Shown here: piece by piece, positions 9,547-15,919 of the stretch
Position numbering within the stretch: position 1 is the stretch's first letter
How the letters are laid out: the number at the start of each line of letters is the position of its first letter
Source of the DNA: a virus
DNA length: 32,010 nt
Virus record (IMG/VR): IMGVR_UViG_3300042691_007754
Span: 1 to 32,010 of that record
Reading direction: 5' to 3' (one strand)
The notes under the pieces: model-generated
What the model saw: only the letters and a program-made list of their open reading frames with translations
Databases searched by the model: none
What the model was told of the DNA's origin: nothing
Position numbers and translations under genes: made by a program

Positions 9547-10215
9547 TTATTCAATTCCGTATGAAGCAAACTTAGTTCTAAGTTCTTCACTTACGGCTGC
9601 AAGAATTTCGGAACTGCAAGCCTTCATAATTTTATTGAGCGTATTTGCATCAGGTGCAACCTCAATAAGGTCACGCACATACGCCACATCTTGCTCATGC
9701 CCACGACCAAGCGCACCCTTCAACTTGAATGGCTTGTATGTGTCTTTGTTCTTTCGATTCAAGTCACGACCGAACACTTTGCCTAATGACAATGCTGCGT
9801 TTTTAAGGCACTCTGTTTTGAGTTTACCAAACGCCAAGTCCATAGCGTTAGCTTTTTTATTATCGGGGTTTAATGCCCATCTATTGCGATCGCTACCGAA
9901 CACGTTGTCGGGTACTTTGTCAACCATGATGATTACCGATGCGGCACCAGTGCGCTTCAACTCGTAGCCGCTAATGGGGTGTATCACCACTAACTCCAGT
10001 GATGCCTGCACTTCGTTGGCAAGTACCGCCCATTTAAAGTTCTCAGTGCGCCAATGACCAAAGAAGAGTTCGTCTAAGGTAGTTTCAACGTGGCTAATGA
10101 CTAAGGTTTGCGCCTTCTTGTCGGGGGTTGATTCCACGCCAAGTGGGTCTGGTTCTGCATTGAGCATCTGCTGAAACTTCTGCAATGCTTCAAGATTGTC
10201 TTTGTGAAAATTCAT
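9547..10215 (-). CDS. Rad52-like single-strand annealing protein
   Basis: Anneals complementary single strands in phage recombination. The 222-residue sequence contains ETTLDELFFGHWRTENFKW, GYELKRTGAASVIIMVDKV and KTECLKNAALSLGKVFGRDL; the last matches the AxKxAA..LG..FG..L helix of Rad52/Sak-type annealases. It lies directly upstream of the YqaJ-like exonuclease. The C-terminal 60 residues are helical and variable. Distinguishing Rad52, Sak3 and Erf subtypes would need profile searches. Confidence 0.7.
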   Translation of the reverse strand: MNFHKDNLEALQKFQQMLNAEPDPLGVESTPDKKAQTLVISHVETTLDELFFGHWRTENFKWAVLANEVQASLELVVIHPISGYELKRTGAASVIIMVDKVPDNVFGSDRNRWALNPDNKKANAMDLAFGKLKTECLKNAALSLGKVFGRDLNRKNKDTYKPFKLKGALGRGHEQDVAYVRDLIEVAPDANTLNKIMKACSSEILAAVSEELRTKFASYGIE

Positions 10216-14207: not shown

Positions 14208-14566
14208 TGCTCTAAGTATTTTTTAATGGTTTGCGTGAATTCTTCAAATGACCTGCACACTTTCACGCAGTATCCTGCGTTTATCAGTTGTGCGTGAACG
14301 ATTTTCTGCGTATCCGAAAGCTTTCCCTTTTCGGTCTTCATCTCGATGAACAGTGCATGATGTCCTGCCGATGCCATGCATATCATCAGGTCGGGCATGC
14401 CTGGCATTGCACCTTCTGCTTTAAGTATGTTCCATCGTTTGGCTCTTTGCACTGTTGTACCGCCAATGAATACTCCGTTAGGAAAAGAAGCGATCAATGT
14501 GCGTGGGAAGGAATACCTGAACCACTCAACACATCGCTGCTGCATTTTGCTTTCGTCATGCTTCAT
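14204..14566 (-). CDS. VRR-NUC domain nuclease
   Basis: A 120-residue single-domain member of the VRR-NUC branch of the PD-(D/E)XK nucleases, which cut branched or structured DNA. Key residues are visible in order: NGVF at 30-33, MPDL with Asp59, IEMKTEKGKLSDTQ with Glu75 and Lys77 and the family-typical GKLSDTQ at 81-87. Stand-alone VRR-NUC proteins are common in phages and may resolve recombination or replication intermediates. It overlaps the methyltransferase upstream by 11 bases and the membrane winged-helix gene by four. Confidence 0.82.
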   Translation of the reverse strand: MKHDESKMQQRCVEWFRYSFPRTLIASFPNGVFIGGTTVQRAKRWNILKAEGAMPGMPDLMICMASAGHHALFIEMKTEKGKLSDTQKIVHAQLINAGYCVKVCRSFEEFTQTIKKYLEQ

Positions 14567-15512
14567 ATGCTTCTATTGCTTTAAAGATTTGATAAACTAC
14601 TTGTGGAACGATTGCGTTGCCATATGCCTTTATGGATTCATTTCGCCATTTTGGAAAGGTAATTCCGTCCAGTTCGGTGGGAAGCCCATCATCTCCGCCA
14701 CAAATCGGGGATTCAGTTGGGAAGATTTCCCAATTTGTTCGATTGAATCCATTTTTGTTGCATGTGGCAACATTCCCATGGCCGCCATTTGTTTCAATGG
14801 ATTTTGCAAATTCACACCCTTTTGTTCGTGGCGTTGTTGCGCTTTCTTGAATGTTTCGGGTTTCCTCGGGGTGTTCCAGTCGAATGCGTTCGGCGTTGGT
14901 AGCATCCCCATCGATGCCATTCGCCCGATGTTCAAAGTATAGTGTCCCTCTTTGCTCTTTAGCTTCCTCCTTCCGTACTTGTCCAAATCGCATGGCGTTT
15001 CTACTTCTTGCGTTAACGGCGTAGGCAACAAACCAAACTCGTTCACGTTGGTGCGGGGCATTGACCGCGCTCGCAGGTATAATAAAGGGCGCGACTTGAT
15101 ACCCAAGAGCTTCCAAGTCAGCACACACCTCGTTGAATACCAACCCTCCATTCCAATTAGTAAGCCCGCGAACGTTTTCGCCCACAACGAAACGCGGGGC
15201 AATCTCTCTAATTGCGCGACACATCTCTGGCCATAGATGGCGTGCGTCTTCTTTTCCAAGTCGCTTTCCTGCGCTTGAGTATGGTTGGCATGGGAAGCCT
15301 CCTGTGAGAATATCAATTTGGTTTGCATACTTTGTAAAATCACTTTTAGTTATATCGGTAAATAATTCTGCTTGCGGCCAGTAATGTTTTAGCACACGTT
15401 GCCCAAACTCATTCCATTCGCAATGAAACATGTTTTCCCAACCCATCCATTCGGCTGCAAGGTCAAAGCCTCCTATGCCGCTAAATAACGAACCATGCTT
15501 CATTCGTGCCAT
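14556..15512 (-). CDS. DNA cytosine-5 methyltransferase (Dcm-like)
   Basis: Transfers a methyl group from S-adenosylmethionine to cytosine C5, probably to protect phage DNA from host restriction. The motifs are complete: I (LFSGIGGFD, 9-17), IV (GGFPCQPYS with catalytic Cys75), VI (GENV, 111-114), VIII (QRERVWFVA, 155-163) and X (YGNAIVPQ, 297-304). The target recognition region (about 165-290) is short and polar. No restriction endonuclease gene is next to it, so it looks like an orphan enzyme. Oddly, a second long reading frame with family-like motifs lies within it (14630-15343). Confidence 0.9.
   Translation of the reverse strand: MARMKHGSLFSGIGGFDLAAEWMGWENMFHCEWNEFGQRVLKHYWPQAELFTDITKSDFTKYANQIDILTGGFPCQPYSSAGKRLGKEDARHLWPEMCRAIREIAPRFVVGENVRGLTNWNGGLVFNEVCADLEALGYQVAPFIIPASAVNAPHQRERVWFVAYAVNARSRNAMRFGQVRKEEAKEQRGTLYFEHRANGIDGDATNAERIRLEHPEETRNIQESATTPRTKGCEFAKSIETNGGHGNVATCNKNGFNRTNWEIFPTESPICGGDDGLPTELDGITFPKWRNESIKAYGNAIVPQVVYQIFKAIEAYEA
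14630..15343 (-). CDS. Overprinted ORF with phage-methylase C-terminal motifs
   Basis: A 237-codon frame entirely inside the methyltransferase gene, same strand, shifted frame. It contains CVLTWKLLG at 73-81, FGLLPTP at 103-109, MLPTPNAFDW at 147-156 and, near its end, LNPRFVAEMMGFPPNW at 210-225 followed by TELPF. These are the motifs of the C-terminal halves of many phage cytosine methylases and their associated proteins (CxxTWK, LLPTP, NPxFVExMMGFPxxW). Here they do not belong to the Dcm frame, whose own motif VIII and motif X occupy the same bases. It might be translated from its own ATG, by frameshift, or be a relic. Expression is not shown by sequence. Confidence 0.5.
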   Translation of the reverse strand: MILQSMQTKLIFSQEASHANHTQAQESDLEKKTHAIYGQRCVAQLERLPRVSLWAKTFAGLLIGMEGWYSTRCVLTWKLLGIKSRPLLYLRARSMPRTNVNEFGLLPTPLTQEVETPCDLDKYGRRKLKSKEGHYTLNIGRMASMGMLPTPNAFDWNTPRKPETFKKAQQRHEQKGVNLQNPLKQMAAMGMLPHATKMDSIEQIGKSSQLNPRFVAEMMGFPPNWTELPFQNGEMNP

Positions 15513-15919
15513 AGTTTAGTGGTTGCCCAAAAGTTAGCCACATAGTTAGCATCGGTCTTGATGTTAATGGTGGGTATGTTGTTGCGCAGATGATTATATT
15601 CCCAATAGCCTAACTTGCTAACCTCATAATCAAAACCAATGCGATGACCGCAATACTGGATGGTTGGGTATTCAACCGCAACGCTAAAGTTGACAATGTA
15701 GTTAAAGCCGTTTAGCGTAACCAAATAGGCATTGTGCAACTCTTGCCCATCCTCGTCCACGATGACCTGCCTATCGGGCTGATATACGTTTTTTACCCAT
15801 TCGTACATCACGCCTACACTTACCCGTAGTTGGTTGCGCATAACGTGGAATGGCTTTTTGTTGATGTTGCGCCTGATATAGGCTACCTGCTTTGCTGTGG
15901 GGTGTTTGATATCACTCAT
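15500..15919 (-). CDS. HTH-like early protein, 139 aa
   Basis: The first 45 residues (PTAKQVAYIRRNINKKPFHV then MRNQLRVSVGVMYEWVKNVY) form a probable helix-turn-helix with a recognition helix around SVGVMYEWVKN. The rest is beta-rich with several aromatic residues (GYWEYNHLRNNIP) and has no recognised fold. A DNA-binding regulatory or replication role is possible. The start overlaps the upstream stop by eight bases; the end overlaps the methyltransferase by 13. Confidence 0.6.
   Translation of the reverse strand: MSDIKHPTAKQVAYIRRNINKKPFHVMRNQLRVSVGVMYEWVKNVYQPDRQVIVDEDGQELHNAYLVTLNGFNYIVNFSVAVEYPTIQYCGHRIGFDYEVSKLGYWEYNHLRNNIPTINIKTDANYVANFWATTKLWHE

Follow-up and report, generated by a model that had tools for sequence, protein, structure and literature searches.

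A methyltransferase locus on a 32,010-base virus record, hereafter the window (the whole stretch of DNA that was analyzed), very probably encodes a two-subunit m5C methyltransferase, in which the gene for a small-domain subunit (beta) is nested within the gene for the large-domain subunit (alpha). Four observations form the basis for this reading: selection on both frames, complementary motifs, a conserved internal start, and homology of beta to the C-terminal halves of single-chain and split enzymes.

Organization of the locus

The window carries phage head, packaging, and recombination genes as well as a Dcm-type gene on the minus strand. As described in the initial annotation, an open +1-frame ORF of 237 codons (14630-15343, minus strand) lies within dcm and contains CVLTWKL, GLLPTP, MLPTPNAFDW, and LNPRFVAEMMGFPPNW. 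The likely alpha start is ATG 15503-15501, which overlaps the stop of the upstream gene, with ATG 15512 as a possible alternative. The features of the two frames are as follows (evidence in parentheses).

14556..15512, minus strand: alpha, Dcm-type catalytic large domain with motifs I-VIII and X, 318 aa (PF00145)
14630..15328, minus strand: beta, nested gene in the +1 frame, 232 aa, ATG 15328-15326, stop TAA 14632-14630 (PHROG 1008, selection profile, conserved start)
15326..15328, minus strand: proposed initiation codon for beta, MQTKLIF... (homologue ATG positions)
15276..15302, minus strand: alpha motif IV, GGFPCQPYS, with the catalytic Cys (sequence; invariant alignment columns)
15171..15179, minus strand: alpha motif VI, ENV (sequence; homologue alignment)
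15110..15121, minus strand: beta LTWK (Leu-codon restriction in dcm D-L-E)
15033..15053, minus strand: alpha motif VIII, HQRERVW (sequence; homologue alignment)
15017..15034, minus strand: beta LPTP module 1, GLLPTP (near-invariant alignment columns)
14885..14902, minus strand: beta LPTP module 2, LPTPNA (near-invariant alignment columns)
14691..14996, minus strand: alpha residues 173-274, linker with predicted disorder that joins motif VIII to motif X, opposite the putative recognition modules (pLDDT <50 throughout)
14666..14716, minus strand: beta motif IX, LNPRFVAEMMGFPPNWT (dcm position rates 0.19/0.04/0.03; E. coli Dcm match with a weak score)
14604..14621, minus strand: alpha motif X, GNAIVP, directly past the beta stop codon (hhalign to actinophage C-terminal halves)

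The gene upstream of dcm (15500-15919, minus strand) encodes a 139-aa protein of unassigned family with no Pfam match; its stop TGA overlaps the likely dcm ATG 15503, which suggests translational coupling. Directly 3' of dcm, a VRR-NUC domain nuclease gene (PF08774; 14204-14566, minus strand) has a start that overlaps the dcm end, and its product has a Holliday-junction-resolvase-like PHROG match. Farther away, a gene adjoining that of a RecE/YqaJ-like exonuclease (9547-10215, minus strand) encodes a 222-aa protein without a PHROG or Pfam match, whose gene position suggests an annealing protein.

The nested frame is open in all 241 loci first examined

Chance openness of the nested frame was ruled out by synonymous-codon shuffling of dcm. 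In 20,000 shuffles the nested span acquired a mean of 6.8 stops and was never free of them, and a +1 run of at least 237 codons had a P value of 0.0001. A tblastn search with the nested protein returned 25 phage records, and in each of the 8 that were inspected the match was the +1 frame of a dcm gene. We assembled a set of 241 loci from viral-contig searches (with nested-frame and with dcm-frame-only queries), earlier loci, and the window; a further contig search with an actinobacterial query gave two loci. The two frames overlap in the +1 relation in 241/241 of the loci first examined, no stop interrupts the nested span across these 241 loci, and in none of them does the nested gene occur apart from a dcm core. 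The nested frame is also found in all 80 loci recovered by the dcm-frame-only query; as these had not been picked for the nested frame, finding it in every one involves no circularity. Together with the PHROG 1008 match given below, the shuffles and the 241 loci bear out the earlier view that the second frame is not random. One marine phage locus (KM23-C739, L003, 1294-2219) has an annotated N-terminal Dcm piece that shares the frame of the nested gene, with the remaining core in another frame; the core there is thus frameshifted or misassembled.

Both frames are under selection

The rate of change at dcm codon positions 1, 2, and 3 was profiled along the gene in 55 independent homologue pairs. 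Ahead of the overlap, the rates (~0.05/0.02/0.30) follow the normal pattern. The third-position rate drops from about codon 49 to 60 and is 0.10 to 0.16 across motifs VI to VIII. In the recognition segment, the first position of dcm, which is the wobble position of the nested frame, becomes the fastest (~0.35 vs. ~0.15 at positions 2 and 3), and over LNPRFVAEMMGFPPNW, the motif IX region, the rates are 0.19/0.04/0.03. Past the nested stop they revert to 0.06/0.04/0.33. A region-based count of substitution classes agrees with this profile, giving a nested-frame NN/NS of 0.20 over LNP..WT. The canonical-Dcm control comprised just two independent pairs, and its codon-position rates were left unused.

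A single codon illustrates the constraint. The Leu codon of dcm D-L-E opposite the nested LTWK is TTG, CTG, or ATG in 115/115 homologues, because the Trp of LTWK forces NTG; by comparison, farther upstream in dcm, TTG and CTG together account for 20% of Leu codons. The nested frame is under purifying selection, and the patterns are those that its translation and selection would give rise to, no other explanation being apparent; the dcm frame is likewise under selection. The initial annotation had offered true overprinting as one possible reading and a comparison of rates in both frames as a check; the comparison found codon-level constraint on the nested frame, in favor of that reading.

The dcm frame encodes a catalytic domain without motif IX

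The dcm frame matches PF00145 with an E value of 1.2e-47, although over profile positions 1-227 of 324 only. With this match and motifs I, IV, VI, and VIII, its product belongs to the C5 family of m5C methyltransferases. It is not a single-chain C5 enzyme, as motif IX lies in the +1 frame, apart from the catalytic core; neither a motif scan nor profile comparison found motif IX in the VIII-to-X interval of the dcm frame, which retains motif X (GNAIVPQ). The initial description of a complete methyltransferase with all motifs therefore holds for motifs I-VIII and X, but not for motif IX or for the part of PF00145 past position 227 of 324.

AlphaFold2 predicted a confident catalytic domain for the dcm frame, with pLDDT mostly about 90 in the core, while residues 173-274, opposite the LPTP modules of beta, fell below 50, with about 30 in the tail. 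A Foldseek comparison matched the alpha model to M.HhaI over 163 of 327 M.HhaI residues. The models thus suggest that alpha folds as the large domain alone and, with motif IX missing and pLDDT about 30, that the dcm-frame tail is unlikely to be a second recognition domain.

The nested frame supplies putative recognition modules and motif IX

Residues 8-231 of the nested protein match positions 36-284 of 329 of PHROG 1008, annotated as DNA methyltransferase (E value, 1.5e-15). Pfam and NCBIfam gave no match or model for the nested protein, and PDB sequence searches with nested profiles returned nothing relevant. The AlphaFold2 model of beta alone was poor (pLDDT 63, pTM 0.35), and this weak model had no fold match in the PDB.

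The nested frame contains tandem LPTP modules in the position of the target-recognition region, followed by motif IX. The LPTP modules may read the DNA target, as their position, their varying number, and their rapid change suggest. LNPRFVAEMMGFPPNWT of the nested frame sits where motif IX belongs, and the nested stop lies immediately ahead of motif X of the dcm frame. An hhalign comparison of the nested profile with full-length E. coli Dcm selects RRLTPRECARLMGFEA, at the exact position but in a statistically weak match (probability, 1.6%). LNPRFVAEMMGFPPNWT also aligns to the motif IX position of actinophage C-terminal halves.

The distribution of motif IX separates the architectures. Relatives of E. 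coli Dcm carry it in the core frame (27/27) and not in the +1 frame (0/27), and their +1 frame also lacks LPTP modules. Conversely, BcepC6B-type loci carry motif IX in the +1 frame (43/43) and never in the core frame (0/43); a strict pattern placed it in the +1 frame in 18/29 Bloom-type loci and in the core frame in 2/29. A broader architecture scan scored 72/77, 73/80, and 50/80 loci of three core-query sets as nested and 25/27 of the E. coli Dcm set as single-chain, counts that are approximate because the pattern was composed after examples had been seen and misses true cases. It still undercounts, as in locus L006, where the nested LNPDWVECLMGFP is visible by eye. No motif IX was found in the +2 frame in the broader scan.

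A conserved internal start codon

Start positions were analyzed in 126 homologues with a recognizable PCQ anchor. All 126 have an in-frame ATG shortly upstream of the PCQ codons: 63 at the position seen in the window (-12, ATG 15328), 53 at -21 to -24 codons, and 10 elsewhere nearby. In ~35% of loci a stop at -20 excludes longer nested proteins, so GTG 15343, the start implied by the open frame as initially described, is unlikely, and the nested gene most likely starts at ATG 15328.

Shine-Dalgarno (SD)-like sites precede the nested ATGs in 108/230 cases of the BcepC6B type (vs. 11% of control positions) and in 41/96 of the Bloom type (vs. 18%). For example, GGGAGGTG precedes a Paenibacillus nested start, and AGAGG precedes an actinophage GTG start. 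The window group displayed no such enrichment (29/506 vs. 11% of control positions), which is expected if the host is a Bacteroidota and gives no positive support for the start. In Acinetobacter ABMM1 and Salmonella S9-5, the nested start comes four bases after the core start (ATGAATG and GTGAATG, respectively), and nearly the whole core gene there is double-coding.

Split and single-chain relatives in actinophages

In phages Hoot and Euratis, the core ORF stops just past motif VIII, and an overlapping +1 ORF has the LPTP modules and motifs IX and X; the architecture of Abidatro is similar. In prophi91-1 and Nocardia altamirensis, the core frame includes the modules and motifs IX and X, giving one chain, and Gordonia phage Gudmit has modules in both frames. 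The methyltransferase pieces of Gordonia phage McKinley (L258, 1104-2352) are spread over three frames; its deposited annotation names two pieces methyltransferase and misses the catalytic core ORF. The single-chain enzyme of Mycobacterium phage prophi91-1 (L259, 1082-1588) retains an uninterrupted +1 ORF that contains two LPTP modules, also keeps a conserved N-terminal QWNPARMIWET..PTSGTTRNG and is either a relic or translated.

By hhalign, the window-type nested profile matches the actinophage halves that comprise the target-recognition domain (TRD) and motifs IX and X (96.7%; E value, 4.6e-10; 110 columns), whereas the dcm-frame profile aligns to these C-terminal halves at motif X only. PHROG 1008 covers beta of the window and of Paenibacillus, Burkholderia, Acinetobacter, and Lacticaseibacillus phages, and it also covers the second ORFs of the split actinophages and residues 264-486 of the single chain of prophi91-1. 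These matches indicate that the nested protein is the counterpart of the methyltransferase small domain, that is, the recognition region and motif IX. The motif chain had been likened initially to the C-terminal halves of known methylases, and it does recur there, both within the core frame of single-chain enzymes and in second genes that overlap the core ORF. The LPTP and NPxFVExMMGFP motifs, which the initial annotation expected to be confined to the shadows of Dcm genes if the second frame were spurious, are conserved under nested-frame selection and also occur outside such shadows.

Occurrence and annotation in phages

Many unrelated phages share the nested layout, which is present in phage or phage-like records of Bacteroidota, Paenibacillus, Lacticaseibacillus, Salmonella, Klebsiella, Burkholderia, Pseudomonas, Xanthomonas, Erwinia, and Acinetobacter, as well as in one cyanophage. 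Its annotation varies. Bloom and PhiXhv-28 are annotated with two overlapping methyltransferases; the nested frame of Lily is a “g62 internal gene,” and K1ind3 has a nested “Mte8-like protein” within a “C-specific methylase.” In PMG1 and Xanthomonas phage FoX4 the nested frame alone is annotated; FoX4 was considered as a case of a stand-alone nested gene and ruled out, the core frame having been checked and found intact. In other records the core is annotated alone and the nested gene is missing, and elsewhere the nested gene is filed as “hypothetical.” Thus, hundreds of phage genes annotated as a single “DNA cytosine methyltransferase” are probably alpha genes with a nested beta, of which the second subunit has usually been missed.

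Comparison with known systems

The small-subunit gene of the window is nested in the large-subunit gene in another frame, as is the beta gene of EcoHK31I, which likewise lies inside alpha. In the account given in PMC3404938, which credits the motif partition to Lee, Kam and Shaw (1995), M.EcoHK31I (YGGCCR) is a heterodimeric m5C methyltransferase with motifs I-VIII and X in the large subunit and motif IX in the small subunit only. The window shares this division, its large subunit having motifs I-VIII and X without IX and its small subunit carrying IX. Unlike the window locus, EcoHK31I is part of a restriction-modification system. The same account assigns the TRD of M.EcoHK31I to the large subunit, itself a prediction, whereas in the window it is the nested subunit that carries the recognition-like modules, opposite an alpha segment with predicted disorder; the likeness to M.EcoHK31I is one of motif description.

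M.AquI (CYCGRG), another two-subunit m5C enzyme outlined in PMC3404938, has catalytic motifs I-VIII in one polypeptide, while a second one contains the distal recognition region along with motif IX. The split actinophages Hoot and Euratis have the AquI partition, with motif X also in the second ORF. The window differs in that motif X, found in the small subunit of M.AquI, is in the large one, and its second gene is fully nested. The single-chain enzymes E. coli Dcm and M.HhaI have the large-domain fold and motif order of the window, but their TRD and motif IX share the frame of the core. A second protein from another frame inside a phage methylase gene has been reported as the out-of-frame HNH endonuclease of the ShiLan domain, an inserted homing element (PMC11855218); by contrast, the nested frame of the window represents the very domain that the enzyme is missing, and it is widespread. 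The motif partition is that already reported for M.EcoHK31I, and it is its breadth in phages that is surprising: the arrangement is unexpectedly common. We found no literature description of it in phages, or of its being general there, in a search that left most subscription journals and REBASE outside its range; the nearest accounts were the summary of EcoHK31I and AquI and the HNH endonuclease paper.

Alternative explanations

The initial annotation also raised a frameshift switch by which one catalytic half would be joined to two tails. Programmed +1 frameshifting could join the core to the nested-frame tail, either as a single chain or as one of two alternative products; the nested frame is always +1, and in the actinophages, where the core ORF ends after motif VIII and the TRD and motifs IX and X follow in a +1 ORF, a frameshift would join both. 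A window-type fusion, however, would be without motif X. Moreover, the nested constraint begins near the nested ATG and is strong over motifs VI to VIII, upstream of any useful shift site, and the nested genes have conserved start codons of their own, with SD-like sites in SD-using hosts. We consider frameshifting unlikely on these grounds, and a switch between two tails also disagrees with a dcm tail that does not appear to be a recognition domain; rather than alternative tails, the frames seem to specify two complementary subunits of a single enzyme.

A genuine overprinted gene acting separately from the methyltransferase would equally have its own start and its own selection, and the interaction of alpha with beta is one that we infer. 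Such a gene would, however, happen to carry exactly the motif that the core is without and to be homologous to the C-terminal half of single-chain enzymes. None of the loci first examined had it without a dcm core, and FoX4, annotated with the nested frame alone, has an intact core; separate action is improbable. Another early suggestion was a relic, in which the dcm frame works alone and the nested frame is left over from a recognition domain that was frameshifted; changes of frame in the recognition region do occur among the relatives (Gudmit, prophi91-1, and McKinley). The selection signal contradicts this reading: third-position change collapses over motif IX and the nested wobble position is the fastest, across many viral contigs. 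The nested span is also without stops across loci, and the dcm frame has neither motif IX nor a folded recognition domain, which leaves a relic with almost no probability.

Proposed model

In the two-subunit reading that we favor, the dcm frame would be translated into alpha, the catalytic large domain with SAM binding, PCQ, ENV, QRxR, and motif X. We infer that ribosomes on the same mRNA also start internally in vivo, at ATG 15328, to make beta, whose 232 residues would contribute motif IX together with the target-recognition modules. The two proteins would then assemble into an active methylating enzyme, in which the alpha segment opposite the recognition modules may serve only as a flexible linker from motif VIII to motif X. 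In the phage, such an orphan methyltransferase would probably protect the phage genome from host restriction.

We give even chances to a broader proposal, that large and small domains encoded in two frames extend across phages of several bacterial phyla and that the nested, split, and single-chain forms interconvert by frame changes inside the recognition region. If this is true, few same-strand overlapping gene pairs of DNA viruses would be as old or as widespread, and the linker of the catalytic gene would be coding space for the specificity subunit.

Codon-optimized cloning of such a gene would eliminate beta and, should the model hold, activity as well. The two-subunit requirement reported for M.EcoHK31I is directly testable in laboratory phage relatives, such as K1ind3, in which both frames are annotated. 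The family is a large natural data set of two reading frames dividing one folded enzyme, and it also informs on how specificity evolves where the recognition modules share their DNA with another gene.
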